From: Mesostigma viride
Taxonomy: Eukaryota > Streptophyta > Mesostigmatophyceae > Mesostigmatales > Mesostigmataceae
Direction of reading: 5' to 3'
Length of the DNA stretch: 64,000 nucleotides
Assembly: GCA_009746045.1 (NCBI GenBank)
Contig: RPFO01000041.1
Span: forward strand, 9,516,468 to 9,580,467
Made by a program: the position numbers and the translations under genes. How positions within the stretch are numbered: position 1 is the stretch's first letter; each line of letters opens with the position of its first letter. Shown here piece by piece: positions 3,436 to 58,814 of this stretch. Under the pieces are notes generated by a model that did no database searches, was not told where the DNA came from, and saw only the letters and a list, made by a program, of their open reading frames with translations.

Positions 3436-3632
3436 CATTTCTGGCCTTGCCTTGCTTTGCATGCATCACCACAAAACATCAAATTTATTACAATATGTGT
3501 GCTAGCTCTATACGGTGGAATAACACAGACATGTCTACCAGATGGCAACACGGCCATCTGTATGCTAGGGTGAGCACACTATGTGAATGTGCAGGGCCAG
3601 CCCACAGCAGCTGTGCCCCTGCTCTACCCCGT
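3436..3632 (-). repeat. Split direct repeat B2 (outer)
   Basis: Near-identical to 3864-4057, with a few substitutions and a small indel near its start (GCATCACCACAAAAC against GCTACACCACTAAAC). It forms the terminal end of the DIRS element abutting satellite. Confidence 0.92.
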
Positions 3633-12395: not shown

Positions 12396-12744
12396 AGTTG
12401 AGTAACTCTAGAGCCCTAGGATCTGGCTCTAAGTTCCCCATGTCCGTCCGCACGCCTTCCGCTAGCGTCCGCTAAGCCGCCGGCTATAATCCGGCGGTCC
12501 GATGCGGTCGACCGGTCTAAGGGCGGCGCCTAGGGCCGGCGCCACCTAGGCCCCAGTCCGGGGCCTTATCCGGGTCGGTACGGACAGCTAGCTTGTCCCA
12601 CGGTTACGGCTAACCGGATAGGGTTTGCTGGCTAAGACATAAACCAGTGGTTGGCCAGCTCCGACAGCAGTAATTTCTCTGTGTTCACCTTATCCCAAGC
12701 TCAACGTGACCGACCGCCATAGCTGAGCCGGTCGGGCGTTAACT
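12396..12744 (+). repeat. 5' LTR of element A
   Basis: 349 bp, very GC-rich, with a TATAATCC string near 12484 that could serve transcription. It is four bases longer than the 3' LTR (insertion near 12670). Terminal inverted motif is AGTT/AACT rather than TG/CA. Confidence 0.93.
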
Positions 12745-12756
12745 TGTATTCATAAA
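12745..12756 (+). promoter_or_regulatory. Putative minus-strand primer site of element A
   Basis: TGTATTCATAAA begins exactly one base after the LTR and is perfectly complementary to TTTATGAATACA at 17859-17870 in the same element. It does not start with TGG as a site for a tRNA 3' end would. Confidence 0.6.
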
Positions 12757-12763
12757 AATCCCG

Positions 12764-15547: not shown

Positions 15548-17832
15548 CGGGACCTAGTGCACGTAGTGACTCACCTCCTGTGCTAGCCACGGATAATGTG
15601 GGAGGCCCGCCTAGCGTGGCCTCGCCGGAGGGTCAGGGTCCTGCCCATGCGCCTCGCCCACCTAGGGACCTGGCTTCAACGGTCACGGCCTTGTGGCGTG
15701 CTCAGGCGCTTAAAGCGAAAGCTGCATCAGGGGTGGCTCAGGTCAAAACTCTCTCACAGGGGGTCAGGCCGGTTAAGTCAGCCTTGTTTCCTACGTGTAG
15801 ACCGTGGCAGCTGGTGGCTGTGGACACGCAAGCATCCGTGTCTATTATCTCTCGTCGGGCAGCCACCCTGTATCCAGTGCTAGAGTCGCCGTACAAATCG
15901 GTGACCGACTTTGCAGGCACTTCGGCATATCAAGTTACCGGGATGGTGGTGCTGCCGGTGTTGGGCATTGACACGCCGTTTCACGTCGTGGATGGCTACG
16001 AGGATGTGGCCTTGCTGGGCGAACCTTTCGTATCATACCCGGGGTTCTCAGTGTCCGCTGACTTGCTGTCAGTCGCGGGGGTGGGCAGCATCCCGCTTCG
16101 CGAGTACCACGCTCCATTGGGGGTGGTGGTCGGGCAGCCCGGCGTCGTGCGGCGCTTACCGATGGCGGCGTTTTCCACACCGCCGCTCGTCCAGTCCATC
16201 ATTCAGCCTCAGGATTGGCACCCGCGCAGCTTCGGCCTCCACTCACACTCACTGGCGGCGGATAGCCCTGTGACGTGGGAGCAACTTGTCCTGGACTGTC
16301 AAGATCCTCTCAAGTTTGCTTTGTGGCGCGACGCGTTCATTCGAGCCAAGGAGCAGTGGCGAGAGCGCGAGGTCTACCGAGGATTGGAGAGTGTGCCAGC
16401 CGGGGCCACGCGGTTGCGGTTGAAGTTCGTGCTCACCTACAAGCCGGACGAGACCAACTCTTCGGTGGTGTTCCGGGTAAGGCCCGTGGTCACGGAGACG
16501 AAGGGGTCCTCCCCGCTGGACGCCAAGGATCTTTATACCCCTGGGCTCAACCATGTTTCGCATCGGCTACTGACGGTCATCTACTTGGGCAAGCGGAACG
16601 CGGGCAAGGACTACGGGATGTGGTGCGGTGACTTTCAGCGGGCATTCCTCCACAGCGACGCTGGGGTCGCGCAGCAAACATGGCAAGGCACCCGCTACGT
16701 GGTGAAGGTCCCGGTGGTCTGGCAGGATGGCACCATTGGCAGCGAGTATATCGAGCTGTTGACAGGGGTGGAGGGGCTGCAGAGCTCTCCCATCATCTTC
16801 CGCATTTCCGCGGAGGAGGTCTTGCAGAGCTTAGGGGCCACGTACCATCGCGCGGATCCTAACTTCTTTGTGGTCCCCACCGGCGTCCCTGGCGAGCCAG
16901 CCCTCTTCGTGTGGCATGGCGATGACTTCAAGCTGGTGGCACCTCGCACCTTTGCTACCCAGTTTCTTGCTGCAGTGGCGGCTAAGTTTCCCCTGGGCAG
17001 GGCGGTGGATCATGAGGAGGGTAAACCCGTGGTGTTTTGCGGCGTGCAGTCTACGTTGCAGCGGGATTCGCGTTCTGGCGAATGGGTCATGCACATGCAG
17101 GATAGCCGCAACTATGTGGTTGACCTGCTGGCCGACCTCCCGTCCCCGCTGTTGGCAACCCATGGGCCCTCGGTTAAGGGCAAGCTCGGGTGGTTGGCGG
17201 ACACGGTGGCACCTGATTTGGCAGTGCTCGCTCGCCTGCCCGATGATGTGCTGGAAGGACTAGGGTCCATTCATGTTCGGCGGCAGCTGGCCATGACGCC
17301 CGGCATTGTGCTTCGTGGGCTCGATTGCTCACAGCCGGTGCACCTCGAGATAGTGACGGATGCTAATCTAGAGACGCGCACAGTCAGCCAAGTGCGGGCC
17401 CGCATGGGGGCACTGTTCTTTATCAGCAATGAGGGCCAGCCTGGCATGTTGTTAGATTGGTACTCGCGCTTGCACAGCCGCATTGCCACTAGCCCCAACA
17501 CGGCTGAATGCCGGGGCATTGTTTCAGCTATCTCACATGGCATGTGGCTGCGGTACTTGCTGGGTTGGGTATTTGGCTCGTGTGGGTTCACTCTTCACTG
17601 GACTAGCACGGTGCACACTGACTCACAAAGTTGTTTGGCCTTCCTTGACAATCCCTATGCGCGGTCACAGGACGTTGATTACCTCGTACTCGCTGAGGCG
17701 GCCTCCTGCGTCACGCGTCTCCAGCACATCGCGGATGAACTCAATCCCGCGGATGCACTCACCAAGGAGGCGCGGGAGGCTGCCCCGCAGTACGCAGTGT
17801 TGCGCAAGCGCATGACGATGCAACACCCGTGA
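15514..17832 (+). CDS. Element A protease-reverse transcriptase-RNase H
   Basis: 772 codons. After a Pro-rich leader, a retropepsin-like domain shows AVDTQASVSII (about residue 102) and ALLGEPFV (about 166). It aligns well with the equivalent part of element B (VDTNSQVSVI, AILGQNFL). Copia-type RT (RVT_2) follows with CGDFQRAFLHSD and VWHGDDFKLV, so HGDD replaces YVDD. RNase H has TDANLE, AECRG, HTDSQS and DELNPADALTKE. Expression may use -1 frameshifting from the upstream gene. A separate start at the first ATG is the alternative. Confidence 0.92.
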   Translation: MDGWDEDGVGLTGPSARSDSPPVLATDNVGGPPSVASPEGQGPAHAPRPPRDLASTVTALWRAQALKAKAASGVAQVKTLSQGVRPVKSALFPTCRPWQLVAVDTQASVSIISRRAATLYPVLESPYKSVTDFAGTSAYQVTGMVVLPVLGIDTPFHVVDGYEDVALLGEPFVSYPGFSVSADLLSVAGVGSIPLREYHAPLGVVVGQPGVVRRLPMAAFSTPPLVQSIIQPQDWHPRSFGLHSHSLAADSPVTWEQLVLDCQDPLKFALWRDAFIRAKEQWREREVYRGLESVPAGATRLRLKFVLTYKPDETNSSVVFRVRPVVTETKGSSPLDAKDLYTPGLNHVSHRLLTVIYLGKRNAGKDYGMWCGDFQRAFLHSDAGVAQQTWQGTRYVVKVPVVWQDGTIGSEYIELLTGVEGLQSSPIIFRISAEEVLQSLGATYHRADPNFFVVPTGVPGEPALFVWHGDDFKLVAPRTFATQFLAAVAAKFPLGRAVDHEEGKPVVFCGVQSTLQRDSRSGEWVMHMQDSRNYVVDLLADLPSPLLATHGPSVKGKLGWLADTVAPDLAVLARLPDDVLEGLGSIHVRRQLAMTPGIVLRGLDCSQPVHLEIVTDANLETRTVSQVRARMGALFFISNEGQPGMLLDWYSRLHSRIATSPNTAECRGIVSAISHGMWLRYLLGWVFGSCGFTLHWTSTVHTDSQSCLAFLDNPYARSQDVDYLVLAEAASCVTRLQHIADELNPADALTKEAREAAPQYAVLRKRMTMQHP

Positions 17833-17835
17833 GCC

Positions 17836-17889
17836 ACACAGGGTTACGGCTCGGGCGCTTTATGAATACAGCCATAACTCACCCTGTGT
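17836..17889 (+). other. Hairpin presenting the primer-site complement, element A
   Basis: ACACAGGG (17836-17843) pairs with CCCTGTGT (17882-17889). TTACGGCT (17844-17851) pairs with AGCCATAA (17870-17877) with one mismatch. The 18-base loop ends with the complement of the putative primer site (17859-17870), whose final A is the first base of the 3' arm. It begins a few bases after the stop of the RT gene and 340 bases before the 3' LTR. Confidence 0.65.
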
Positions 17890-18210
17890 TGCTAGCATTC
17901 ACGAATATCATGGTGGTAGTTTTTTTTGCTTGTCCTGACCATACCCTAGCCACGTTGGACGGTGCCTTGGGCCCGTCGGCGGGTCACTGGTCCTAATAAA
18001 TGGGTCACCTTTTGTCTGGTGGCATAGTTGTTTTTTTCTCGCTACTTATTACATCACTATTCATGTGTGATCACAAGGGCGCGGGTCGATACCGTGGTGA
18101 TTTTGACGGCCTTGAGGCCCCCTTGAGTTCCCTACCTTAGAGGGTTTTGTATGGTCTGCATTTGATGTAATTATTTTGATAATTAATCAAAGAACAAAAG
18201 AGTATGTCGG

Positions 18211-18555
18211 AGTTGAGTAACTCTAGAGCCCTAGGATCTGGCTCTAAGTTCCCCATGTCCGTCCGCACGCCTTCCGCTAGCGTCCGCTAAGCCGCCGGCT
18301 ATAATCCGGCGGTCCGATGCGGTCGACCGGTCTAAGGGCGGCGCCTAGGGCCGGCGCCACCTAGGCCCCAGTCCGGGGCCTTATCCGGGTCGGTACGGAC
18401 AGCTAGCTTGTCCCACGGTTACGGCTAACCGGATAGGGTTTGCTGGCTAAGACATAAACCAGTGGTTGGCCAGCTCCGACAGCAGTTCTCTGTGTTCACC
18501 TTATCCCAAGCTCAACGTGACCGACCGCCATAGCTGAGCCGGTCGGGCGTTAACT
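18211..18555 (+). repeat. 3' LTR of element A
   Basis: 345 bp, matching the 5' LTR except for the 4-bp indel. The preceding 20 bases are A-rich (AAAGAACAAAAGAG) and may act as a polypurine tract, although it does not directly abut the LTR. Confidence 0.93.
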
Positions 18556-28412: not shown

Positions 28413-28781
28413 GTCCATGTTCCCAAGAAAAGTCCTTTTCTATTCCCACTATTACCAATCCACCAACATTTGATTAACCCCTAAATGGTCTTGCTGCCGA
28501 TTTTCCGCCAAAAAGTGACTTACAGCCGATTTATCGGCACCTACTCGGGGGACCAGTTTGCGAGAATACCATTGGGAATTAGGAAACGTTTAGCTGAGAA
28601 GAATGAAAGTTTATAAGTTTCTCCAGACCATGATACTAGGGTTTGCTATATTTTGACCAAGTTTAACAGGTGTTCCAGACCGTCAAAGTACAGGGGGTAC
28701 AGGGTTTTTTGGGTGCAGTCGGCCCCGACGTTCGACGCAAAATTCACGTTCGGACGAAATTTATGGTCAGCCAGCCTGGAC

Positions 28782-30171
28782 ATGGCTGTCGCGCCCACGA
28801 CAATGGCAGCCACAGGGCGGCTCGTTAAGGGGCTTAAAGTTAGCGTACCGGCGGTCCTGTTCGGTGCTGACTGGGCAACGAAAGAATTTGGCAAAAATTA
28901 TGCGACTGTGCGCCTGGCAGGTGTAGTAAAGCGGGTGAAACGAGACAAAACGCAGGCATTTTGCGAGTTTGAGGGCGATAAAAAGCTGTACCCACTCAAG
29001 AAAGACCAGGTTTTTGAGTACCTGGTGAGTGCTAACGATGTGGGGGGTGGTGACGATGAGGTCCCCGACCTGGTTCCTTCAGATGATGACGAGCCCGAGT
29101 CGCAGGAGGTGGTACAGTCGGACGATGGGTCTGAGGAGGAATTCGAGGGGGAGGAGGACGCCAGCGATCCGGAGGAGGAGGAGGACATCGAAAAGACTCC
29201 GTTGAAGAAGCGCAGTCGTGCACGAGGCAAGAAAGCCTCCCGGCGCAAGGGCATCGATAAGTGCAGAAAGAAAGGCAAGAAATCGCTGGGCGCGCGCGAT
29301 CCGGAGTCTGACGAGGAACAGGACGAACACCTTCAGAAGCAGGGCGATGGCGTGGACGACATGCCTGAACAGGACGTAAACGATCCAGTGCTGAGCGACG
29401 ATGAGATTGCTGGAGAGGGGAGTGCCTCAAATCCTGGTGCAGGCTGGGTTTTTGGGGCGGGAGCACCTGATGCCGACGTGCAGTCTTTGTCGACCAACAT
29501 TGCCGTCGACGTTGCCATGCCAGTTCCTGAGGAGGCCAAGCTGCCTGGCACCAGCCAGACCAAGTACCAGGAGAGCCCTGTCGACATCTTTGCTCTGTTT
29601 TGGACACGAGATGATGTGCTGGGCCCCATTGTGGAGGAGACCAACAGGTATGCCGCCATGAAGGGGCTCACTCTGCCAGCACACGCGCGCGACTGGACGC
29701 CACTTACAGTGCATGAGCTGGCCAAGTACTTGGGCGTCCTCATTACCATGGGCCTGGGTGGCCTGCCCAACGCACAGCTCTACTTCACTGACCGCAAGGT
29801 GGGCATGGCGACAGCCCCGGGCCTGCAGCATTTCATGACGTATAAGCGTTTCCAGCAGATCACCCGCTTTCTGCACTGCAAGGACAGTGCCCACAAGCCA
29901 GCCAACACCGAGTGCCGCGAGTACCGCCTGTACCAGTTCGAGTGGCTCGAGATCCACCTCAACAAGGCGTACAAGAAGTACTGCACGCTCGGGGGGAAGT
30001 GCGCCATCGACGAGCGCTGCGTGGGCACCGGCCACAAGTTCTGCAGCATTCGCTGCTTCAACCCACTCAAGCCAGCCCCCTTCCACATTCTGGCATACGC
30101 CCTGTGTGCCCACCCCAGCGGCTACCTGTGGCACTACCACACCTATGACAAGCTCCCCCAGGAGCAGCACA
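28782..30171 (+). pseudogene. piggyBac-type transposase, N-terminal part (split by insertion)
   Basis: From ATG at 28782 (MAVAPTT; an upstream in-frame codon at 28653 lies in the terminal region), 463 codons run into the B1 insertion. Residues 90-210 are acidic then strongly basic, as in many PGBD proteins. The DDE_Tnp_1_7 fold begins near residue 270 with VDIFALFWT. CAIDERCVG carries the first catalytic aspartate, followed by KPAPFHILAYALC. The frame resumes in phase at 38624 after one copy of the GCACA duplication is discounted, so the insertion alone breaks the gene. Confidence 0.93.
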
Positions 30172-30819
30172 AGTTAGCGAGCAGCCAGAACTGTGAGTTC
30201 CTGGTCTCTCACGCCACACAACGGGATGAGCCAAAGTTGCAAGGCAGCAACCTTTTAACCCGTGCACCAAGCCACGACCACGGTGAGCGGTTCCACGTCC
30301 AATGTGGGAGCCTCGGTTCGTGCTTGCCAAGATAGCTGGTCATCCCCCATGACCAAGCTATATCCTTTGCGTTGTTCCTCGTTCCCATCGGCGTGACGAG
30401 GCACGTGCAGGCATGCAAGCAAATCCTCAACGTCCACTGGCATCAGTGCAGAGCCAGGACGAACTGGATTTGCCTAGACTCTGCAACCTAGGAAGTACAG
30501 GACCTGTCACAAGCCTGCAAGGCCTAGTATCCTTGCAGACCTGTGCCAGTTCCTGTAGTCCACCAGTCACAGGCTGCTGCTCCTCTGGTCTACGTGGACC
30601 ACAGTCACGTGATAGTCAGGCTAAGCCTGCGCAGGCACGGCCTGCCACGTGTCCTGTCCACTACACCAGAGGACTGTACCTCAGTCGGCCACGGACGGCT
30701 AGGACTTCGGGACCTCATATCTTTCTTGTCCCTTGTCTGTTTCAGGCGGTCAGCACGGCGTTGGAAAGGTCTTTCCAAACTGCATCCACTTAGCATATTG
30801 GTTGCCCAAAATGCTAACT
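30172..30819 (-). repeat. 3' LTR of B1
   Basis: 648 bp. In coding orientation it follows a short polypurine stretch (AAAAGAAGAAAGGG, complement at 30824-30837). Confidence 0.94.
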
Positions 30820-31826
30820 CCAACCCTTTCTTCTTTTGGAGCTGGACCAGCTTGAAACAACCTAACCTTGCTTGTGCCCACTCAGCCACAGACCGCTTGG
30901 TCCCTTGAGGTTGATCAGACCTTTGAGGGCCCAGGTTCCTGCCTCCTTTGGGTAACAACATATCTGCCCTTGGACCAGGCTAGGTGTACTGGCCAGTGAA
31001 TCAGAGGTCACCCCAGGTTATCCCCTGACCCCTTGGTCAGCTCCCAACCTTTCCTTGGGAACTTGGTGCTAGATTAAAGTCAAGGCACATTACCTAGTCC
31101 AATGGCTGGGATTACAGGATGCCAAGAACGTACTATTGTGAGTTCCTGATCTTTCACAGTTATCACAGGCGCCCGTTCTTATGGCGCCCGCCTTGGCCAG
31201 CCTTTCCCTTTTATGCTCAAAGAGACTCAGGTAGCACCTACAAATACTGCCTCATTGGGGAGCCCATGTCTTCACTGGGTGTTAAGCCCAGGAATCACTC
31301 ATGCCAGGCTGTGGCTCTGCTGGGGAATTGAACCCCACCCCAACCTCCAGGTTTATAGGTGACCTGGAACTTTACACAAGAGAAACATTACAACCATGGA
31401 ACAACATGAGAATGACATGACATGATTATGTTTTATTCAAGCATTATATAACCCAGAATGTGGCCCCCTGGCAACCATGTTCCACATGGTCACACAACCA
31501 GGTTCTTTATTAGCAACAGGTTGGAAACAAGCACTAGAAAACATATGTACAGCAACCTGTAAGAACCAACATTCGGGTTGCCCTTGCATGGCCTAACTGT
31601 TTGAGGCCAAAGGCGTCGACTTAAGTCCTGGCGACTCTTCTGAACCCCATGGGGAGGGCCAGGCATGATTCTCAGCTGGTAGGAGTGACATTCCACACCA
31701 ACTCCTGTCCAGGAGGGTGTACCTAACCCTGAAGGACCGGCTGTCAACCAGTAAGCACCAGTCACCACTTGGTACTTTGGTCAAGCAGCCCACTGGGGAC
31801 ACCCAAGCTGAAGCAAGGCCTGGTCT
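30820..31826 (-). other. B1 region between RNase H and 3' LTR, including primer hairpin
   Basis: Non-coding, about 1 kb and conserved with B2. It contains a tRNA T-arm-like segment (GGTTCAATTCC, minus strand, near 31330). It also holds a hairpin with arms 31121-31129 and 31175-31185, whose loop edge (31129-31138) is complementary to the ten bases after the 5' LTR (37961-37970). Confidence 0.65.
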
Positions 31827-34800
31827 CTATGGCCGCCCGTGTAAGGGGTCCATGAGCCCACGGAGCAGGGGGTACTGCCTCTCCGCCTTCTCCTCCAGCT
31901 TGGTGAGGGCATCTGCAGGGTTGTCCACACCAGGCACATGTTCAATGTGAGCTAGGTAGGACATCTCCTTGAGCAACAAGTAGTCAAGGTCCCTGCTCCT
32001 GGCCAGCTGCCTGTGCACAAATTGCACCATGCCCATGCTATCAGTCCTCACCAGTGTGTGCAGCTGCAACCTACAGGAAGCCACTTGACATAGCTGGTAG
32101 AAGAGCTCCCTCAAGTAAAGAGCAGTATGCAGCCCTTCACAGATTGCCCTGCACTCAGCAATATCACTGCTGGGTGTAACCCTGTTCTGCAACCGACTGT
32201 ACCAGGTAACAAGTGAGGTGTGATCTTGCTCCAGGGTAACTAATGCTGCTGCCCCCCCTGACCTCTGTGACCTTCCTATTATCCATAGAACTGTCCACAT
32301 AGAGAACCATGTCAAGGGGCTTGTACAAATCCACAGGACCCAGTATGAGAGGGGGAGACATCATGACAGCCTGCACCACACTCTCAGCACCCACCTCAAC
32401 CAGCTGGGAATCAGTAAGTCGACTCAGAACCAGCAAGTCAGGGGCACATATACTTGCAAGCCATGCCAGCATGCCCCTGATGGTAGCACACCTAGCCTGC
32501 GTGATGGGCTCCTGCAATGCATCTACAATCTGCTGTGGGTAGTCCTTACCACCCTCCATCCTGATGAACCACGAGCCCTTGGCTTGGAACAACGTAGCCT
32601 GCATGCCACAGAAGACCATAGGCTCATTCTCCACCATGTGCTGTATCTTACCCAGCTCAAACCGCTTCTGGATCTTAGCCAAGACAGCCTCAACCCAGTC
32701 TGGTGGACCTATGAGATGCAGGTCATCACCATGCAGTGAGGCAAAGACAGGAAGGCCATTGTGGGACCCTTGGAACAAACAGGGATCCACTGGAGACACA
32801 GAAAACCCACAAGTATTCTTCAAGAATTTCTCTAGGCTCTTTCTCCAGATAATGGGACTGGACCTGAGACCTTCCAACCCTTTCAGAATTCTCAGGTACC
32901 TGGCCTTTATCTCTGCTCTCCATACAGCAGGTACAGTCACAAAGAAAGGAGGGATATCTCTCCAAGTCTGCCTAGCCTGATCTTGGTCACCCTTGAGAAA
33001 AGCCCTCTTGAAATCAATCAGCACAGAGCTATAGGGCACACCCTTAACCAGAAAAGACAGAAATATACACAGCAGAATCCTCCACGTGTCATGCAGCATC
33101 CCTGGAGTATAGAGCTCCTCATCTAACAACTGGCCAGTGCCATGATACTCGGTTACAACTGGTCTGACATGTGGCACCTGGACACCATCAACCTCCTTGA
33201 GCTTGAGGACAAACATCAATCTGAGCAGCTGGTGAACTTCTGGCAGCTCATCCACAGGTTCTGCACAGTTGGAAACTATCCACTCATGCCCAGAAGCAAC
33301 AAAGCCAAGAGTCCATGCCTTAGCCATCTTGGGGCTCTGCATCATCTCGACTAGCTGGCGCCAGGGAATAGGACTGTGAGCAGCTATCTGGTACCTGTTT
33401 ACCCCTAACTGCCTTGGATCAAAGGTGGTTGGGATTATCAACAAGTCCTCAGCTATGGGCTCCTGACTCTGAGGACCCTCAGCTGGCTGACTCCTAACAG
33501 CCTTCACCGCCACTGCAAGACCCTGGGAATAGTGATATCTTTCAAGGGGGAGGCTGCCCCTGCCTTCTAGTGCCAACTCATCAGAGGTCAAAGTAACCCC
33601 TGGCATGCACAAGAAGTTCTGACCCAGAATGGCAGGCCCCTGATAGCCCTCTACCACACAGAACGTGGTGGGCACCCCTAAGATAGGCACACTCACTTCC
33701 CCAAGGATCTTCATGGACACCTTTCCTGAGAAATCAGACACAGCAAGGCAACTGGGATGGGACATCTGTAAGCCTACAGCATCCTCTTCCCTGATGACAG
33801 ACACCTGTGAGTTGGTATCTACCTCCATTGTAGCTGCCCAGCACGACCCCCACCCCGTGAGCTTGGATACCTTGGGATCATGTTTGCTGCGCATGAGTGC
33901 TCGGATGACGTCCGCCATGAGAGGCCCCCGGGCCTTAGGTGGCTGCCCCGTCCCCTCTGGCCTTGTGACAGTTGCTTCAGCAGCCTCCTGCTCGTCATCT
34001 TCCAGCAGGGACAGACCATCATCCACCACCAGAGGATTGTTAGCTGCTGCTGCCTGGCTCTGGCCTGGCTCCTCAACCCAGCTGGGAGGGCCTGGCCCGT
34101 CTGCAGGCCAGATTGCATGTGGCCTTCTTTCCTTGACATGAGCCCAGGACAACCTGTACACGTGCCTTGGATCCTTTTCCAAAGCCACCAGGCAAGATCT
34201 GTTAGCTTCTTCCACACGAGTGACAACCCCATCCTGCCACTTCCCCCGCTTGCCTGGAATAGATGGTTCCTTCCACATCCTGACCTTCAGCCCCACCTGA
34301 GGCCTCAGCACATTCCAGTTCTTGTCCTTACGTCTCAGCTGGGCAAATAACCTATCTGCCTTCCTAAGACTGGCCTGCACCACGTTCTCAGGCAACAAGC
34401 TATACTGCAGGGCCAGGGGAGAGACAGCCACACCATCAAAGTAATAGTTAACCCTGTGGTTCAGCTGCTCTTCTATCCCCTTACACCAGGCTGCCCTCTC
34501 TAAGGCAGATGCCACAAGTGGCACTGACTCTGCTGCTAGCACCACTGTCTTCACTTCACGTATGGATCTCTCTACAGCCCCTTGCTGCCCATGACTCTCC
34601 CTGGGGACTACTACCAGCTTACAAGGCAGCTGGTCCTGATGCTTGAGCAAACAGTCAAACTGCAAGTCTGCCTGCACACTCTTGCACACCCCAAAGCCTG
34701 GGATCAGGGCCTTCATACCCAACAACAAGTGGTGCTCCTGCATACCAGGCAGAACGTCTATCAGCCTGTATCTGCTGAACCTGTCCACCCCCACCAATAT

Positions 34801-35345
34801 ATACAAGCCCCTGATATGCTGGATATCCATCTGGATGTCGCCACGCTCCCTAGCAGGCTCCCTAGCATGGGACTGAGGTGGGTGAACAGCATTCTCCTGG
34901 CAACCACAGTTCTCAGCAGCAGCCTGGCATGCCTCCCACAAAGGCTCCCTACCTAGCTTCCAAGCAAACATTGCTGCCTGCCCAGAATGCCCAAACATGT
35001 GATGCAACTATGGCCAGCCTCAGCATAGCTCAGCACTCTGTCAGTACTGACCTGGCGAGACGTCTGAACCGTGTGTGGGGACACATGATCCACTCCTGAG
35101 GTTCCAGGGCTTCCCTGCAGGCCATCCTGACGCCCCAAGTCAGGTCCTGCACCCTGGACCGCTCCAGGCCCTTCCAGCAAGGTCCCTTGGCCCTCCAGGC
35201 CAGCACCTGCTGGAGACCCACCACCTGCATGAGGCATAGGGAATTCAGCTGCAGCATTGTTATTGCAATCCAGTGGAAGAACAACATCTTTACACCCTTG
35301 GTGCTGCACAAGGGGCACACCCCCATCCTTATGTACATCCAGCAC
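31827..35345 (-). pseudogene. B1 pol: integrase, retropepsin-like, RT, RNase H (frameshifted)
   Basis: The longest frame (32164-35007, 947 codons) begins inside integrase (MHHMFGHSG, then MDIQHI, QADLQFD, GAVERSIREVK) and has an SH3-like tail with GKRGKW. A retropepsin-like domain follows (MEVDTNSQVSVI, AILGQNFL, positions 33828-33613). RT comes next with IDFKRAFLKGD and LHGDDLHLIG. A two-base loss in a G run near 32256 shifts the frame before RNase H (VRTDSMG, GVDNPADALTK; 31827-32315). Another shift near 35010 separates the N-terminal leader starting MLDVHKDGG. The copy cannot make a full pol without frame correction. Confidence 0.9.
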
Positions 35346-37970: not shown

Positions 37971-38618
37971 AGTTAGCGAGCAGCCAGAACTGTGAGTTCC
38001 TGGTCTCTCACGCCACACAACGGGATGAGCCAAAGTTGCAAGGCAGCAACCTTTTAACCCGTGCACCAAGCCACGACCACGGTGAGCGGTTCCACGTCCA
38101 ATGTGGGAGCCTCGGTTCGTGCTTGCCAAGATAGCTGGTCATCCCCCATGACCAAGCTATATCCTTTGCGTTGTTCCTCGTTCCCATCGGCGTGACGAGG
38201 CACGTGCAGGCATGCAAGCAAATCCTCAACGTCCACTGGCATCAGTGCAGAGCCAGGACGAACTGGATTTGCCTAGACTCTGCAACCTAGGAAGTACAGG
38301 ACCTGTCACAAGCCTGCAAGGCCTAGTATCCTTGCAGACCTGTGCCAGTTCCTGTAGTCCACCAGTCACAGGCTGCTGCTCCTCTGGTCTACGTGGACCA
38401 CAGTCACGTGATAGTCAGGCTAAGCCTGCGCAGGCACGGCCTGCCACGTGTCCTGTCCACTACACCAGAGGACTGTACCTCAGTCGGCCACGGATGGCTA
38501 GGACTTCGGGACCTCATATCTTTCTTGTCCCTTGTCTGTTTCAGGCGGTCAGCACGGCGTTGGAAAGGTCTTTCCAAACTGCATCCACTTAGCATATTGG
38601 TTGCCCAAAATGCTAACT
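37971..38618 (-). repeat. 5' LTR of B1
   Basis: 648 bp. Compared with B2 LTRs, the first ~500 bp of the LTR are about 96% identical by eye and the last ~140 bp (U5 side) clearly diverged. Confidence 0.94.
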
Positions 38619-38623
38619 GCACA

Positions 38624-39693
38624 CTGTCAAGGTTGTGCAGCTCCTTGGGGAGACCATGCCCCACTCCATGGACGTGGCCATGGACAGGTGGTACACCAGC
38701 CGGCCAGCCGTGGAGTGGCTGCATGAGCAGGGCCACAACGTGGTCGGCACGGTGGTGCCCAACCGCAGGGGCATCCCCTGGGCTGAGCTCAAGGCGCTCA
38801 TTCCCAAAGGCAAGGCACTCAAGCAGGGCTTCTACGCGTGGGCGGTGCACGAGGAGACGGGGCTGCAGGTGCTTGTGTGGATGGACCGCAAGCTCGTGTA
38901 CCTGCTGCAGAAGGGGTATGGCCTGCAGGAGGTCATGGTGGATCGCCATGGGGGGCGTGGCAATGCCCGGGTGAGCGTCCCAGCCCCGTCAGCCGTCCCC
39001 AACTACTGGTCATGCTACAAGGCAGTCGACCTCTTTGACCAGCTGGCTGCAGAATACGACGTGGGCAGGGCCCTGGTGAGCAGGGTGTGGTGGCACAGGG
39101 CCTTTGGGGCCCACCTGGTGAATGCCATCACCAATGCATACCTGCTGATGACCTTCATCAACCGGGGGAAGTCCTGCATGAGCCACTACACCTTCATGTC
39201 CATGCTGGCAGACCAGCTGGGGAGGAACCAGTGGCCAGGGGCGCCTGCCCCTGTGAGGCAGATCACCATCATCCCAACCAGGGAGGCACGGTGGGACGGC
39301 AACCACGAGGCCCAGCGCATTCCATTCGTGGTCGAGGCTGACTGCGCTGTCTGCAGCGCCACGTCCACCACCGGTGCCCGCAAGCGCACAAGCGTATGGT
39401 GCCCTGAGTGCGACATTGCTCTGTGCAACTCCGTGGACTACCCATGCTTCCAGATTTATCACACGGGCCACGTGCCCGGGCTGGACGAGATCCCGGGGGA
39501 GCCAACACCTGACCCCAGGTATTCCAGGGCACTCACCGAGAAGAGCGCGCGGGGCAAGGAGTGGGTGGCAAAGCGGCAGACCCGTGAAGGGTCAACGCCT
39601 GGTTCCACCCTGGTGGGGAACGCTAGGAAGCGGTGGCTGAAGGCCAACTGCCCCATCAACAAGAAGAAGAGGAAGTCAAACACCCCATCATAA
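38624..39693 (+). pseudogene. piggyBac-type transposase, C-terminal part
   Basis: 356 codons in phase with the part ending at 30171. MDVAMDRWYTS supplies the second catalytic aspartate. AVDLFDQLAAEYDVGR supplies the third acidic position and is followed by WWHRAFGAHLVNAITNAYLL, all typical of DDE_Tnp_1_7. The C-terminus has a cysteine-rich zinc-binding region (CAVC...WCPECDIALC...C...H) as in PGBD transposases, and then a basic tail (KKKRKSN) that could direct nuclear import. Apart from the B1 insertion the whole gene looks intact. Confidence 0.93.
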
Positions 39694-50329: not shown

Positions 50330-50972
50330 AGTTAGCATTTTGGGCAACCAATATGCTAAGTGGATGCAGTTTGGAAAGACCTTTCCAACGCCGTGCTGAC
50401 CGCCTGAAACAGACAAGGGACGAGAAAGATATCAAGTCCCGAAGTCCTAGCCATCCGTGGCCGACTAGGGTGCAGTCCTCTGGCATAGTGGACAGGACAC
50501 GTGGCAGGCCGTGCCTGCACAGGCTGAGCCTGATTATCACGTGACTGTGGTCCACGTAGATCAGAGGAGCAGCAGCCTGTGACTGGTGGAGTACTGGAGC
50601 TGGCACAGGTCTGCAAGGATACTAGGCCTTGCAGGCTTGTGACAGGTCCTGTACTTCCTAGGTTGCAGAGTCTAGGCAAATCCAGTTCGTCCTGGCTCTG
50701 CACTGATGCCAGTGGACGTTGAGGATTTGCTTGCACGCCTGCACGTGCCTCGTCACGCCGATGGGAACGAGGAACAACGCAAGGATATAGCTTGGTCATG
50801 GGGGATGACCAGCTATCTCGGAAAGCACGAACCGTGGGTGCCACCTTGGTCGTGGAAGTGCCCATTGTGGTCGTGGCCTGGTGAACAGATTTAAGGTTGC
50901 TGCCTTGCAACATTGGCTAAGACGCGCTGTGAAAGATCAAGAGCTCACATACGTTGGGAGCTCTTTCTAACT
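50330..50972 (+). repeat. 5' LTR of B2
   Basis: Starts AGTTAGC, ends TTTCTAACT. The segment 50927-50949 (CTGTGAAAGATCAAGAGCTC and so on) recurs in the internal hairpin loop near 57830-57852. Confidence 0.94.
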
Positions 50973-50983
50973 CGTATTATTGT
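50973..50983 (+). promoter_or_regulatory. Putative primer site of B2
   Basis: CGTATTATTGT starts at the first base after the LTR. It is perfectly complementary to ACAATAATACG at 57850-57860 and to nothing TGG-like. Pairing stops exactly at the LTR boundary. Confidence 0.6.
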
Positions 50984-50997
50984 CTCCTTACTTCTTC

Positions 50998-52185
50998 ATG
51001 TCCAACGTGCCGAGGGAACAGGCCATTGAGCCTTCGCAAAGCCAGAGCTCGCAGCCGCAGCTTCGGGTAGGAGCCCCGGAGCGATCACGACCTTTTCATC
51101 CCTACGCTCATCCGAGCACCGCATCAACCTTCGTCCAGGCGGCGTACCTGGCAAGGGGGCTGGCGAAGAAAGGTTGGGTAGCAGTTTGCGGAACTGCAGC
51201 AGGGCCGGCGGCGAGCGACCCCATTGTGATGCAGATTGAGGCTTCGACAGCTCCCGGCGAATTGTCGCGAGAGGCCGTCGAAAAGTTTGTGTCAATACGG
51301 GACGAGCTGTCCTCGACCATTTACGGTCTGGAGGTGGCTCACCAGGGCGGGCACGTGACCGTGTCGCAGCTGGATTTGGCGCGGGAGGCACTGGGCCAGA
51401 TCGTGGCCATTGGACTGGGAGCAGCGCGACTGTTCAACCATCAGGTGGCAACGTCTGTGCTGGGCGCGGGAGTTGAAGTCCCGGACGTGATCAGGCAAGC
51501 GCAGGCGCGCGAAGTCGACAACCCCTGGTCGTCGGCAGAGGTGGTTTCACAAACGTGCGAACACCTCGTGAACATTCTTTTGCAGGAGTCACGGGGTAAC
51601 GCAGACCGGTGGGTGATAACCACACGACCATTTGGGATTTGGTCAACACTCGACACACCGCGGGCGGCGGAACCAGACGCACACGATCCAGTGGTCGAGG
51701 TCATCACGGGTCGGGAGGTAACGCCAGAAGACTTCCATTACCAATTCGTTGATCAGCCAGAGGGGATCATCGAACGTTCATCTCAGCAGATAGATCAAGG
51801 CGACGGTACCACAGAAGGGTACGCTGCACGACGTCGTGCTGAGCTGCACGTCCCGCAAGAGCCCGAACACGACTACGGTGGTCGTGGGGCTTGCAACGAC
51901 AAGCGGGGTGGTGGAACGCGGTGGGTGAGGAACCTTGAGTGGGATCGCTCGAGTGGGAGCGAGCCCCGGATCCCAGTGGAGAAGTCTGCAGACGGGCGAC
52001 CCGTTAGCAGAGTGTTTGGACCCTACGCCGACGGGGAGGACGCCGCTGGCAGCGACGAGGAGCGGCCAGAGACGCCCATCGCAGCCACTGCTCAAGAGCG
52101 AGAGCTGGAGGCAGCGAACCAAGCAGGTGCTGAGTCAGTAGCTGGGACGGTGCCCACGGCATCCCCCAGCGACGCCAGTGCTTGA
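50998..52185 (+). CDS. B2 ORF0, extra upstream protein of unknown function
   Basis: 395 codons from ATG at 50998, 25 bp after the LTR and before gag. It begins with a polar Ser/Gln-rich head. The central part has STASTFVQAAYLARGLA, GGHVTVSQLDLAREALGQIV, SAEVVSQTCEHLVNILLQE and DRWVITTRPFGIWSTLDTP. The tail is acidic and disordered. It is the only fully open gene of B2. The homologue in B1 is frameshifted and only about 55-60% identical, although gag-pol is nearly the same. No domain is recognised; a second structural protein or regulator is possible. Confidence 0.8.
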   Translation: MSNVPREQAIEPSQSQSSQPQLRVGAPERSRPFHPYAHPSTASTFVQAAYLARGLAKKGWVAVCGTAAGPAASDPIVMQIEASTAPGELSREAVEKFVSIRDELSSTIYGLEVAHQGGHVTVSQLDLAREALGQIVAIGLGAARLFNHQVATSVLGAGVEVPDVIRQAQAREVDNPWSSAEVVSQTCEHLVNILLQESRGNADRWVITTRPFGIWSTLDTPRAAEPDAHDPVVEVITGREVTPEDFHYQFVDQPEGIIERSSQQIDQGDGTTEGYAARRRAELHVPQEPEHDYGGRGACNDKRGGGTRWVRNLEWDRSSGSEPRIPVEKSADGRPVSRVFGPYADGEDAAGSDEERPETPIAATAQERELEAANQAGAESVAGTVPTASPSDASA

Positions 52186-52238
52186 GTCAGTTCTTCCTTT
52201 TTCCTTCGCCTTTATTGTTGTGTCCCCACTTGTATATA

Positions 52239-53591
52239 ATGCCTCGTGGCAAACCGGGCGACGGCGACAAGGGCGAGGAGGGGGCACCGGCTGGAGAGAG
52301 CCAGGAGCCTGGGAAGGGCAAGGAGGCGCTGGTGGGAGAGGCGATCCCAGCCAGCGACGGCGATGGGGGAAAGCGACCAGGGAGCAAGAGGCGACACGAA
52401 GACTCGGTGGAGGAGGCGCGCAAGGCGCGGGCGCTGGGGGCATCTGATGCAATAACGGTGGCGAATGGGCAACCTGCCGTGGAGAAGCGTAAGAGGGACC
52501 CCTCTGCTGACGGCAATGGTAAGAGGCCTCATGTGGATGTGCTCTCCCCTGTGCCTGCTGGACCAAGTGGTGCTGTTGTTGTGACACCCGCTGTGGTGGA
52601 GCCAGTGAAGGCGCTGCCAGGGTCGAGACCTCACATGAGTGCTGTCACTGTTATGAATGGACAAAAGCCTCTTAACCCACCACTAGCACAGGAAGCTTTG
52701 GACAAGTGGCTAGAGGACATGGAGCTTGTTGTGTTCTCCGTGGACCCCACTGTCAACCTAGTGCAAGTGTTTCACTCGTCCACGTGCAACAGGGACTCGT
52801 CAGAGCGTGTCAGGGAGAAGGCTAGGACTGCTGTCAAGGATAAGCTAACCTGGGCACAGTTCCTGGAAGGGTTGAGGGAGAGTTCTCTGACAAGGTTCTC
52901 AACCTCACCAACTACTACAAGCACAGTATGACACCTTTGAGATAGTGGGCCCTGTGGCAGAGGAATGGGCTAGGCTCAACCGTATCAGGGACAAGGGGGC
53001 CAAGTATGGCTTCCTGGTCACAGATAGGGCCTTGGCAGACTATTTCCTGGACCGTATGGGTTTGAGTGTGGATGGGAGGAACGGTGCCCGCATGTTTCTT
53101 AACCAGACTGATGGCTCCTTGCGTGCTCTGGAGCTTGTAATCCTCAGCATAAGGAAGCCAGAACCTGCCTGCAAGGCTATCCAGTCCCATGGCAGCAATG
53201 CCACCTCCGCTGTGCAGGGCCAAGGTGATGTCCCCGGGTACCCAGCCCGTGATGGGGCAAGGCCCAACAAGCGTAAGCGCTTCAGGCGCCAGAGGCAGGG
53301 GCTCAGGGTGGCAAGGGTGCAGGTCCCCAAGGAGGGGTTGGGGGCCAGCAAGCTGGTGGTCAGCAGGGTAAGGGTGGCCAAGGGCAAGGCAAGGGCCAAG
53401 CTCAAGGCAACCAGGGCAAGCAGGGTGGGCAGCCTCAGGGAGGCCAGGGGAAGCCTGGCAAGGGTGGGGCTGGGTCTGGGAAGAAGGGTGGAGCATGTTT
53501 TGTGTGTGGCAAGGAAGGTCACTGGCGTCGTGAGTGTCCTGACAGGAAGGCCAAGCCTGCTGGGGCAGGAGGCCAGTCTGGGCAGCAGTGA
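52239..53591 (+). pseudogene. B2 gag (frameshifted)
   Basis: ATG at 52239 overlaps TATATAATG. MPRGKPGDGDKG, then a basic segment (KRRHEDSVEEARKARAL) and the gag core (KWLEDMELVVFSVDPTVNLV). The frame breaks near 52880 (one base missing against B1), near 52925, and again between 53290 and 53490. A zinc knuckle (CFVCGKEGHWRREC) is readable at about 53494-53535 in another frame. Confidence 0.8.
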
Positions 53592-53639
53592 CTAGCTACA
53601 TCATCCCCTGTAAATAGTCAATCACCCCTTGGGGAAGGT

Positions 53640-56600
53640 GTGCTGGATGTACATAAGGACGGGGGTGTGCCCCTTGTGCAGCACCAAGGGTGTAAAGATG
53701 TTGTTCTTCCACTGGATTGCAATAACAATGCTGCAGCTGAATTCCCTATGCCTCATGCAGGTGGTGGGTCTCCAGCAGGTGCTGGCCTGGAGGGCCAAGG
53801 GACCTTGCTGGAAGGGCCTGGAGCGGTCCAGGGTGCAGGGCCTGACTTGGGGCGTCAGGACGGCCTGCAGGGAAGCCCTGGAACCTCAGGAGTGGATCAT
53901 GTGTCCCCACACACGGTTCAGACGTCTCGCCAGGTCAGTACTGAGAGAGTGCTGAGCTATGCTGAGGCTGGCCATAGATTGCATCACATGTTTGGGCATT
54001 CTGGGCAGGCAGCAATGTTTGCTTGGAAGCTAGGTAGGGAGCCTTTGTGGGAGGCTTGCCAGGCTGCTGCTGAGAACTGTGGTTGCCAGGAGAATGCTGT
54101 TCACCCACCTCAGTCCCATGCTAGGGAGCCTGCTAGGGAGCGTGGCGACATCCAGATGGATATCCAGCATATCAGGGGCTTGTATATATTGGTGGGGGTG
54201 GACAGGTTCAGCAGATACAGGCTGATAGACGTTCTGCCTGGTATGCAGGAGCACCACTTGTTGTTGGGTATGAAGGCCCTGATCCCAGGCTTTGGGGTGT
54301 GCAAGAGTGTGCAGGCAGACTTGCAGTTTGACTGTTTGCTCAAGCATCAGGACCAGCTGCCTTGTAAGCTGGTAGTAGTCCCCAGGGAGAGTCATGGGCA
54401 GCAAGGGGCTGTAGAGAGATCCATACGTGAAGTGAAGACAGTGGTGCTAGCAGCAGAGTCAGTGCCACTTGTGGCATCTGCCTTAGAGAGGGCAGCCTGG
54501 TGTAAGGGGATAGAAGAGCAGCTGAACCACAGGGTTAACTATTACTTTGATGGTGTGGCTGTCTCTCCCCTGGCCCTGCAGTATAGCTTGTTGCCTGAGA
54601 ACGTGGTGCAGGCCAGTCTTAGGAAGGCAGATAGGTTATTTGCCCAGCTGAGACGTAAGGACAAGAACTGGAATGTGCTGAGGCCTCAGGTGGGGCTGAA
54701 GGTCAGGATGTGGAAGGAACCATCTATTCCAGGCAAGCGGGGGAAGTGGCAGGATGGGGTTGTCACTCGTGTGGAGGAAGCTAACAGATCTTGCCTGGTG
54801 GCTTTGGAAAAGGATCCAAGGCACGTGTACAGGTTGTCCTGGGCTCATGTCAAGGAAGAAGGCCACATGCAATCTGGCCTGCAGACGGGCCAGGCCCTCC
54901 CAGCTGGGTTGAGGAGCCAGGCCAGAGCCAGGCAGCAGCAGCTAACAATCCTCTGGTGGTGGATGATGGTCTGTCCCTGCTGGAAGATGACGAGCAGGAG
55001 GAGGCTGCTGAAGCAACTGTCACAAGGCCAGAGGGGACGGGGCAGCCACCTAAGGCCCGGGGGCCTCTCATGGCGGACGTCATCCGAGCACTCATGCGCA
55101 GCAAACATGATCCCAAGGTATCCAAGCTCACGGGGTGGGGGTCGTGCTGGGCAGCTACAATGGAGGTAGATACCAACTCACAGGTGTCTGTCATCAGGGA
55201 AGAGGATGCTGTAGGCTTACAGATGTCCCATCCCAGTTGCCTTGCTGTGTCTGATTTCTCAGGAAAGGTGTCCATGAAGATCCTTGGGGAAGTGAGTGTG
55301 CCTATCTTAGGGGTGCCCACCACGTTCTGTGTGGTAGAGGGCTATCAGGGGCCTGCCATTCTGGGTCAGAACTTCTTGTGCATGCCAGGGGTTACTTTGA
55401 CCTCTGATGAGTTGGCACTAGAAGGCAGGGGCAGCCTCCCCCTTGAAAGATATCACTATTCCCAGGGTCTTGCAGTGGCGGTAAGGCTGTTAGGAGTCAG
55501 CCAGCTGAGGGTCCTCAAGGTCAGGAGCCCATAGCTGAGGACCTGTTGATAATCCCAACCACCTTTGATCCACGGCAGTTAGGGGTAAACAGGTACCAGA
55601 TAGCTGCTCACAGTCCTATTCCCTGGCGCCAGCTAGTCGAGATGATGCAGAGCCCCAAGATGGCTAAGGCATGGACTCTTGGCTTTGTTGCTTCTGGGCA
55701 TGAGTGGATAGTTTCCAACTGTGCAGAACCTGTGGATGAGCTGCCAGAAGTTCACCAGCTGCTCAGATTGATGTTTGTCCTCAAGCTCAAGGAGGTAGAT
55801 GGTGTCCAGGTGCCACATGTCAGACCAGTTGTAACCGAGTATCATGGCACTGGCCAGTTGTTAGATGAGGAGCTCTATACTCCAGGGATGCTGCATGACA
55901 CGTGGAGGATTCTGCTGTGTATATTTCTGTCTTTTCTGGTTAAGGGTGTGCCCTATAGCTCTGTGCTGATTGATTTCAAGAGGGCTTTTCTCAAGGGTGA
56001 CCAAGATCAGGCTAGGCAGACTTGGAGAGATATCCCTCCTTTCTTTGTGACTGTACCTGCTGTATGGAGAGCAGAGATAAAGGCCAGGTACCTGAGAATT
56101 CTGAAAGGGTTGGAAGGTCTCAGGTCCAGTCCCATTATCTGGAGAAAGAGCCTAGAGAAATTCTTGAAGAATACTTGTGGGTTTTCTGTGTCTCCAGTGG
56201 ATCCCTGTTTGTTCCAAGGGTCCCACAATGGCCTTCCTGTCTTTGCCTCACTGCATGGTGATGACCTGCATCTCATAGGTCCACCAGACTGGGTTGAGGC
56301 TGTCTTGGCTAAGATCCAGAAGCGGTTTGAGCTGGGTAAGATACAGCACATGGTGGAGAATGAGCCTATGGTCTTCTGTGGCATGCAGGCTACGTTGTTC
56401 CAAGCCAAGGGCTCGTGGTTCATCAGGATGGAGGGTGGTAAGGACTACCCACAGCAGATTGTAGATGCATTGCAGGAGCCCATCACGCAGGCTAGGTGTG
56501 CTACCATCAGGGGCATGCTGGCATGGCTTGCAAGTATATGTGCCCCTGACTTGCTGGTTTGAGTCGACTTACTGATTCCCAGCTGGTTGAGGTGGGTGCT

Positions 56601-57161
56601 GAGAGTGTGGTGCAGGCTGTCATGATGTCTCCCCCTCTCATACTGGGTCCTGTGGATTTGTACAAGCCCCTTGACATGGTTCTCTATGTGGACAGTTCTA
56701 TGGATAATAGGAAGGTCACAGAGGTCAGGGGCAGGGCAGCAGCATTAGTTACCCTGGAGCAAGATCACACCTCACTTGTTACCTGGTACAGTCGGTTGCA
56801 GAACAGGGTTACACCCAGCAGTGATATTGCTGAGTGCAGGGCAATCTGTGAAGGGCTGCATACTGCTCTTTACTTGAGGGAGCTCTTCTACCAGCTATGT
56901 CAAGTGGCTTCCTGTAGGTTGCAGCTGCACACACTGGTGAGGACTGATAGCATGGGCATGGTGCAATTTGTGCACAGGCAGCTGGCCAGGAGCAGGGACC
57001 TTGACTACTTGTTGCTCAAGGAGATGTCCTACCTAGCTCACATTGAACATGTGCCTGGTGTGGACAACCCTGCAGATGCCCTCACCAAGCTGGAGGAGAA
57101 GGCGGAGAGGCAGTACCCCCTGCTCCGTGGGCTCATGGACCCCTTACACGGGCGGCCATAG
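53640..57161 (+). pseudogene. B2 pol: integrase, retropepsin-like, RT, RNase H (frameshifted)
   Basis: Starts MLDVHKDGG. Integrase is intact to the SH3-like tail (HHMFGHSG; MDIQHI; QADLQFD; AVERS). One A is missing near 54855 relative to B1, so the retropepsin-like domain continues in another frame (54791-55534; VDTNSQVSVI, AILGQNFL). Further single-base losses near 55490 and 56561 precede RT (55546-56562; LHGDDLHLIG) and RNase H (56559-57161; VRTDSMG, NPADALTK). The domain order gag-INT-AP-RT-RH is the same as in elements A and B1. Confidence 0.9.
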
Positions 57162-58171
57162 AGACCAGGCCTTGCTTCAGCTTGGGTGTCCCCAGTGGGC
57201 TGCTTGACCAAAGTACCAAGTGGTGACTGGTGCTTACTGGTTGACAGCCGGTCCTTCAGGGTTAGGTACACCCTCCTGGACAGGAGTTGGTGTGGAATGT
57301 CACTCCTACCAGCTGAGAATCATGCCTGGCCCTCCCCATGGGGTTCAGAAGAGTCGCCAGGACTTAAGTCGACGCCTTTGGCCTCAAACAGTTAGGCCAT
57401 GCAAGGGCAACCCGAATGTTGGTTCTTACAGGTTGCTGTATATATGTTTTCTAGTGCTTGTTTCCAACCTGTTGCTAATAAAGAACCTGGTTGTGTGACC
57501 ATGTGGAACATGGTTGCCAGGGAGCCACATTCTGGGTTATATATGCTTGAATAAAACATAATCATGTCATGTCATTCTCATGTTGTTCTCATGGTTGTAA
57601 TGTTTCTCTTGTGTAAGTTCCAGGTCACCTATAAACCTGGAGGTTGGGGTGGGGTTCAATTCCCCAGCAGAGCCACAGCCTGGCATGAGTGATTCCTGGG
57701 CTTAACACCCAGTGAAGACATGGGCTCCCCAATAAGGCAGTATTTGTATAGGTGCTACCTGAGTCTCTTTGAGCATAAAAGGGAAAGGCTGGCCAAGGCG
57801 GGCGCCATAAGAACGGGCGCCTGTGATAACTGTGAAAGATCAGGAACTCACAATAATACGTTCTTGGCATCCTTTAATCCCAGCCATTGGACTAGGTAAT
57901 GTGCCTTGACTTTAATCTAACACCAAGTTCCCAAGGAAAGGTTGGGAGCTGACCAAGGGGTCAGGGGATAACCTGGGGTGACCTCTGATTCACTGGCCAG
58001 TACACCTAGCCTGGTCCAAGGGCGTATATGTTGTTTCCCAAAAGGAGGCAGGACCCTGGGCCCTATCAGGTCTGATCAACCCCAAGGGACCAAGCGGTCT
58101 GTGGCTGAGTGGGCACAAGCAAGGTTAGGCTTGTTTCAAGCTGGTCCAGCTCCAAAAGAAGAAAGGGTTGG
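57162..58171 (+). other. B2 region between RNase H and 3' LTR
   Basis: Non-coding, conserved with B1. Holds AATAAA at about 57475, a hairpin CCAGGT/ACCTGG followed by a T-arm-like TGGGGTTCAATTCCCCA near 57650, and the primer-complement hairpin. A polypurine stretch AAAAGAAGAAAGGG (58154-58167) lies four bases before the LTR. Confidence 0.7.
57804..57868 (+). other. Hairpin presenting the primer-site complement, B2
   Basis: GCCA-TA-AGAAC (57804-57814, TA bulged) pairs with GTTCTTGGC (57860-57868). The complement of the primer site (57850-57860) is at the 3' end of the 45-base loop and its last G is the first base of the 3' arm, the same geometry as in element A. Confidence 0.6.
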
Positions 58172-58814
58172 AGTTAGCATTTTGGGCAACCAATATGCTA
58201 AGTGGATGCAGTTTGGAAAGACCTTTCCAACGCCGTGCTGACCGCCTGAAACAGACAAGGGACGAGAAAGATATCAAGTCCCGAAGTCCTAGCCATCCGT
58301 GGCCGACTAGGGTGCAGTCCTCTGGCATAGTGGACAGGACACGTGGCAGGCCGTGCCTGCACAGGCTTAGCCTGATTATCACGTGACTGTGGTCCACGTA
58401 GATCAGAGGAGCAGCAGCCTGTGACTGGTGGAGTACTGGAGCTGGCACAGGTCTGCAAGGATACTAGGCCTTGCAGGCTTGTGACAGGTCCTGTACTTCC
58501 TAGGTTGCAGAGTCTAGGCAAATCCAGTTCGTCCTGGCTCTGCACTGATGCCAGTGGACGTTGAGGATTTGCTTGCACGCCTGCACGTGCCTCGTCACGC
58601 CGATGGGAACGAGGAACAACGCAAGGATATAGCTTGGTCATGGGGGATGACCAGCTATCTCGGAAAGCACGAACCGTGGGTGCCACCTTGGTCGTGGAAG
58701 TGCCCATTGTGGTCGTGGCCTGGTGAACAGATTTAAGGTTGCTGCCTTGCAACATTGGCTAAGACGCGCTGTGAAAGATCAAGAGCTCACATACGTTGGG
58801 AGCTCTTTCTAACT
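58172..58814 (+). repeat. 3' LTR of B2
   Basis: 643 bp, essentially identical to the 5' LTR. Directly followed by CTTCT and the polypyrimidine tract and acceptor of the host intron. Confidence 0.94.

Follow-up and report, generated by a model that had tools for sequence, protein, structure and literature searches.

In the long terminal repeat (LTR) retrotransposon Tf1, the first 11 nt of the element RNA pair with the primer-binding site (PBS), with RNase H cleaving the RNA between bases 11 and 12 (PMC7175516); self-priming of this Tf1/sushi type is described for Tf1, Tf2 and Tj1, which are Ty3/gypsy chromoviruses (PMC10085805, PMC4600332). For Ty1/copia elements, self-priming from the 5′ LTR has been predicted in the TAR lineage (TAR/Houba/Osr-1) (PMC6317226). 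The dictyostelid element Skipper and the fungal GalEa elements have no recognizable tRNA PBS, and a novel kind of priming has been suspected for them (PMC5006619, PMC5445492). The stretch analysed here, 64,000 nucleotides of contig RPFO01000041.1 of the streptophyte Mesostigma viride (hereafter, the window), holds two copia-like elements, B1 and B2, in which the bases that follow the 5′ LTR are complementary to a segment of the 3′ noncoding region of the same element. On balance, these B elements probably encode their own minus-strand primer, carried in an internal hairpin close to the 3′ end.

The B elements resemble those of the Tf1/sushi group in that the element RNA is complementary to its own PBS and, on the reading proposed, no tRNA acts as primer, and the Tf1 primer is of the same length (11 nt) as that proposed for B2. 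They differ in that the primer of Tf1 lies in the 5′ LTR while that proposed for the B elements lies in a hairpin ∼310 nt before the 3′ LTR, and in that Tf1/sushi elements belong to the gypsy type. With TAR/Houba/Osr-1 they share both a probable Ty1/copia affiliation and a predicted self-primer, although in that lineage the self-primer was, by the method of the paper concerned, searched for and predicted in the 5′ LTR only (PMC6317226). With Skipper and GalEa they share the lack of a recognizable tRNA PBS; no complement of the present kind appears in the passages cited for those elements (PMC5006619, PMC5445492), and in fungal GalEa, unlike the B elements, a palindromic hairpin occupies the place of the PBS (PMC5445492). 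The original prediction knew of no earlier description of a 3′ internal hairpin primer. No report of one was found in the open-access literature searched; self-priming as such is known from Tf1 and had already been proposed for copia elements (TAR), and what is new, within the literature searched, is the 3′ internal location only.

Complementarity between the PBS and an internal hairpin loop

Both elements are flanked by LTRs and by 5-bp target-site duplications (TSDs). B2 lies on the forward strand, with LTRs of 643 bp (AGTTAGC..TCTAACT) at 50330–50972 (5′) and 58172–58814 (3′) and CTTCT as its TSD. B1 (38618–30172 from LTR to LTR) lies on the reverse strand, with LTRs of 648 bp (AGTTAGC..GCTAACT) at 37971–38618 (5′) and 30172–30819 (3′) and TGTGC as its TSD. 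The LTR ends were set from the comparison of 5′ and 3′ LTRs and from the TSDs, independently of any primer match. Since the two LTRs differ at one position in each element (642/643 identical in B2 and 647/648 in B1), both insertions are probably recent. The LTR termini of both are AG..CT (AGTTAGC..CTAACT) and not TG..CA.

The 11 bases that follow the 5′ LTR of B2 (CGTATTATTGT, 50973–50983, forward strand), identified as its PBS from their sequence and the LTR junction, are the exact reverse complement of 57850–57860 (ACAATAATACG, forward strand), the candidate primer, whose proposed 3′ end is G57860. In B1, the 10 bases that follow the 5′ LTR (CGTACTATTG, 37970–37961, reverse strand) are likewise the exact reverse complement of 31138–31129 (CAATAGTACG, reverse strand). 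The pairing in both elements begins precisely at the border of the LTR and does not extend into it. These complements had been predicted beforehand, and their sequence, coordinates and register proved correct, with the LTR ends fixed by the TSDs. The same was true of the base change noted between the two elements, which was read in both window copies: the PBS has T in B2 (T50977) and C in B1 (C37966), and the internal site has A (A57856) and G (G31133), respectively.

When the post-LTR prefix was compared with the remaining internal region, the longest match was 11 in B2 and 10 in B1. In dinucleotide-shuffled sequences, the best match for B2 was 9, so that none of 2000 shuffles reached at least 10; for B1, 2 of 2000 did so. 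A scan of 60 start offsets after the LTR placed the best B2 match at offset 0, with no other match as long. In neither element is there a TGG at the start of the PBS, where CGTATTATTGT/CGTACTATTGC adjoin the LTR directly (the criterion for a tRNA-primed element being a TGG 0–5 nt from the LTR); the primer is therefore not the 3′ end of a mature tRNA. If the PBS is aligned with tRNA positions 29–39, as for a half-tRNA, U33 and A37 fit, and the anticodon, read from the letters, would be AAU (B2) or AGU (B1). This register, however, demands A32 and C38 (or U38), which are unlike usual anticodon loops.

The B2 primer is predicted to lie in a hairpin (57840–57867, forward strand) which, when folded alone, has the stem TCAGGAAC/GTTCTTGG (57840–57847/57860–57867), a loop at 57848–57859 and a local folding energy of −6.6 kcal/mol; the B1 counterpart, from sequence and fold, is at 31122–31149 (reverse strand). 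A hairpin homologous to it is present at the 3′ end of the LTR in both B1 and B2. That of B2 (AAGAGCTC..GAGCTCTT, 50939–50965, forward strand), recognized by alignment and fold, has a primer region 4 nt shorter: over the pattern CTGTGAAAGATCARGARCTCAC[4 nt]ATACGTT, the LTR reads CTGTGAAAGATCAAGAGCTCAC-(4 nt missing)-ATACGTT and the internal copy CTGTGAAAGATCAGGAACTCACAATAATACGTT. Shuffled LTR ends matched as well in 0 of 1000 cases for B2 and in 1 of 1000 for B1. As judged from sequence and fold, the hairpin module is thus present twice, just before the PBS and around the primer, and it is possible that one protein binds both modules and brings them together. A Tf1-type primer within the 5′ LTR was not found: the primer part of the LTR hairpin is shortened in B2 (ACATACG) and gone in B1 (ACAG), and the LTR was set aside as a primer source since its copy of the hairpin holds no intact primer.

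A TATA-like CATAAAAGGG is found at 57774–57783, upstream of the primer hairpin, and recalls an LTR end copied together with promoter and leader.

Pairing among genomic copies and mosaic divergence

A comparison of the post-LTR decamer with the internal loop across genomic copies had been proposed as a check on the prediction. The genome searched was the window's own assembly (439,911,974 bases in 2243 contigs). For the B2 set, a search with the B2 3′ region was used, and the best 40 of 700 candidates were kept (20 long stretches, 19 short ones and the window copy). For the B1 set, a search with the B1 3′ region gave 835 candidates, the best 40 of which included the window B1; 29 of the other 39 were taken, the loop and post-LTR stretches both being fetched. 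The sampled copies are near-identical subfamily members chosen by their likeness to the window B1 and B2. A scripted count examined 70 elements, 55 of which had both PBS and loop read. The remainder comprised three in which the loop was not read (L067–L069) and twelve with no LTR junction in the stretch (L046, L047, L049, L052, L054, L056, L072/073, L090/091, L102/103, L104/105, L112/113 and L126/127); L104/105 carries LTR sequence, and its stretch probably missed the junction.

Perfect pairing of at least 10 bp was found in 51 of the 55 elements; three had G·U as the covarying pair, and one had a mismatch. At the covarying position (PBS/loop) T/A was seen in 31 elements, C/G in 21 and T/G in three, and the non-pairing combination C/A in none of the 55. 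Pairing is kept in both sampled subfamilies, and a compensatory change linking T/A and C/G would be expected to pass through T/G. Among the B2 relatives, 17 of the 20 long and 16 of the 19 short stretches contained the 5′ junction, and the PBS was CGTATTATTGT in 17/17 and 15/16 of these, respectively, L058 having CCTATTATTGT with an unchanged loop; the loop was read in all but the three mentioned above. Together with the window B2, this makes 31 elements with an A in the loop and both sites read, 30 of them matching exactly. All 29 B1 relatives had ACAATAGTACG as their loop; the junction was found in 23, with CGTACTATTG as the PBS in 20 and GTATTATTG in three (L083, L107 and L125). Including the window B1, there were 24 elements with a G in the loop, 21 of them exact matches. 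L107 and L125 have in common a third kind of LTR end. The stem of the LTR hairpin is preserved between B1 and L107 by a single paired change (CCAGGAACT/AGTTCTGG vs CCAGGAGCT/AGCTCTGG); in L125 one side differs, and the fold has a shifted bulge.

Divergence between B1 and B2 is unevenly spread. The ORF1-bearing segments beside the PBS are 62–76% identical and the LTR end 75% identical, whereas most of pol, lying between the LTR/PBS/ORF1 segment and the primer segment, is 99–100% identical (for 56142–57340, 100% in aligned columns, with 3 gap columns). The 3′ noncoding region around the primer had been described as otherwise nearly identical in the two elements; this holds for 57491–57938 (98–99%), but identity falls to 95% over 57939–58088, and the A57856/G change accounts for one of the 21 columns in which the two elements are listed as differing over 57440–58171. 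Going by these alignments, B1 and B2 are mosaics in which the matching PBS/primer pair was retained while other segments were exchanged, since the primer and the LTR/PBS/ORF1 segments have diverged and the pol between them is nearly identical. Dating by the LTR pairs suggests that both versions of the primer and PBS belong to recently active lineages.

A candidate priming mechanism and its alternatives

If the B elements do encode their own primer, the hairpin ∼310 nt before the 3′ LTR would hold the 11-nt primer in its loop, with the 3′ G of the primer at the 3′ edge of that loop, and the primer would pair with the first 10–11 nt after the 5′ LTR. The RNA would then be cut after the primer G, most simply by the RNase H of the element acting on the primer:PBS duplex, as in Tf1, and the resulting 3′-OH would be extended into U5, leaving the primer ribonucleotides ACAAUAAUACG at the joined end. 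The donor of the primer would most likely be either the second of the packaged RNAs or a separate fragment, since a genomic RNA cut at the hairpin would lose its own 3′ LTR. If this primer is copied into plus-strand DNA in the way that tRNA primers are, plus-strand synthesis would keep the PBS matched to it, and the PBS would follow changes in the loop. That the two sites pair in the cell, and that the RNA is cleaved and used as a primer, are steps that we infer from the sequence. Taken further, and at somewhat less than even confidence, the B elements may represent a third primer source for LTR retrotransposons, namely a 3′ internal hairpin loop that is cut to an 11-nt primer and acts on a partner RNA in trans, with the PBS rewritten at each cycle. 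A change in the loop would then carry the PBS along with it, from A:U through G·U to G:C, as the three subfamilies might reflect.

A number of observations weigh against an element-encoded primer. If the template itself were cut within the hairpin, it would be separated from the 3′ LTR needed for first-strand transfer. When the 5′ leader was cofolded with the 3′ module, the primer:PBS duplex was not the best structure. The predicted position of the primer, at the 3′ edge of a hairpin loop, agrees with the stem as folded alone, but the minimum free energy structure of the longer internal region is multibranched (z −2.19); a multibranched alternative containing a GUGA/UCAC stem was set aside in favour of the simple hairpin, because some LTR copies (GCGA variants) disrupt that stem. 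The B2 LTR retains ATACG, the complement of the first five PBS bases, and a short Tf1-like pairing within that LTR may therefore occur. In the scan of 60 offsets, offset 0 of B1 ties with an equal chance 10-mer at offset 40, so the B1 match is weaker when taken alone. L058 is mismatched at PBS position 2 (1 of the 31 A-loop elements), and 3 of the 24 G-loop elements have a T in the PBS and hence only a G·U, L083 among them also having a rearranged LTR end and lacking the first C. Finally, the covariation perhaps represents one or two ancestral events seen in many descendants, and not 55, because the copies are near-identical subfamilies picked by their likeness to the window elements. The prediction that B1 and B2 covary thus extends to dozens of genomic copies while resting on one or two ancestral changes. 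With that reservation, the pairing, its register and the covariation are real, and they fit an element-encoded primer better than they fit the alternatives tested.

Among the alternative readings, the one that survives best, though it is unlikely, is that the two sites form a 5′–3′ RNA cyclization pair like CYC5:CYC3 of Ty1, aiding reverse transcription or packaging, with a separate primer. In Ty1, as in the B elements, the 5′ region has a perfect complement in the 3′ noncoding region, and this 14-nt complement between the 5′ region and the 3′ untranslated region promotes reverse transcription (PMC5454406). The internal site of the B elements has a location similar to that of CYC3, in the noncoding stretch ahead of the 3′ LTR; a hairpin loop lends itself naturally to a kissing interaction, and cyclization avoids the problem of a severed template. 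However, the pairing in B1 and B2 begins at the first post-LTR base and stops at the LTR, which is the position of a PBS, whereas CYC5 (155–168) is off the PBS of Ty1 (95–104) and downstream of it (PMC5454406). Ty1 is primed by tRNA-iMet; in the B elements a separate primer would need to share the very site that pairs with the loop.

Distinctly less probable is that the match is a historical by-product of an old duplication or template switch of the LTR end, by which an inverted or similar stretch with no present role came to lie in the 3′ region. The homology between the internal hairpin and the 3′ end of the LTR does make a duplication probable. That homology, however, is direct and extends over the hairpin, while the match between primer and PBS is inverted and lies at the hairpin edge; moreover, without selection the two sites would not be expected to stay paired in both subfamilies, given that the ORF1-bearing segments beside the PBS differ by 24–39%. 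Marginally less probable again is a host half-tRNA primer, as in Copia, Osser or Bianca, in which case the internal match would be incidental or would mimic a tRNA. Primers consisting of half a tRNA-Met or half a tRNA-Ile have been reported in Ty1/copia lineages (PMC6317226), but B1 and B2 would require two different tRNAs, and the internal match and its matching base change would be left unexplained. Within the 64-kb window ARAGORN detected no tRNA, a result that carries little information on the genome as a whole.

Other features of the window and implications for LTR retrotransposons

The B elements are probably Ty1/copia-like LTR retrotransposons; the copia-type reverse transcriptase model RVT_2 matched under Pfam's curated cut-off (E values of 1.2e-4 and 1.4e-5), and the integrase was assigned by eye. 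Aligned to its relative P0001, the 947-aa frame has integrase-like and then reverse transcriptase (RT)-like stretches, as judged by eye; no integrase model matched. P0001 was the only match for pol among 7995 scored candidates. By eye, pol (53979–57161 in B2 and 32164–35007 in B1) appears to comprise, in order, integrase, a protease-like DTN motif plus ILGQNF stretch, RT and RNase H. A protease between integrase and RT would be unusual for copia elements. In the RT, LHGDD presumably takes the place of YVDD. ORF1, an extra frame after the PBS (50998–52185 in B2, forward strand), lies between the PBS and gag, is divergent between B1 and B2 and has no Pfam match. Its single relative, P0002 (40% identity), came from 7994 scored candidates drawn from 5.8 billion proteins; the eukprot source label ‘Mesvir1’ reads as that of a Mesostigma viride protein. 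No relatives were confirmed in scans of viral contigs. A purine-rich tract just before the 3′ LTR of B2 (58154–58171, forward strand), read from the sequence, is a candidate plus-strand primer. B1 is flanked by transposase frames (28653–30332 and 38635–39690), the DDE_Tnp_1_7 profile matching with its N-terminal part on one side of the element and its C-terminal part on the other, as if B1 had inserted into the gene.

Rfam gave no matches over the window at the gathering threshold, and with E values up to 5 the interval 57160–58172 gave six, all far under gathering scores. The 3′ noncoding region of B2 contains a tRNA T-arm-like (B-box-like) GGGGTTCAATTCCCC at 57651–57665, with no Rfam tRNA match. 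When introns were allowed, ARAGORN reported tRNA-Leu(AAG) with introns of ∼550 nt at seven loci and tRNA-Trp at one, all of which were judged false. Elsewhere in the window, 276-bp direct repeats (12396–12671 and 18211–18486) flank two long frames that have no Pfam match; in this LTR-flanked unit (12396–18486) the internal complement never exceeded 7 at eleven post-repeat offsets. A tyrosine recombinase domain is encoded in a frame of 976 aa (4262–7189, reverse strand) that has 213-bp direct repeats on either side, at 3654 and 8558, and repeat arrays with 30-base spacing are found at 2938–3477 and 8778–10100.

Skipper and fungal GalEa are among several LTR retrotransposon groups that lack a recognizable tRNA primer site, and in which a primer located elsewhere in the element might start reverse transcription. 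If a primer can sit elsewhere, surveys limited to tRNAs or to complements in the 5′ LTR would miss it, and scanning the post-LTR decamer against hairpins of the 3′ noncoding region would be a direct test. An element that encoded its primer in this way would, if the reading is true, be independent of host tRNA pools.

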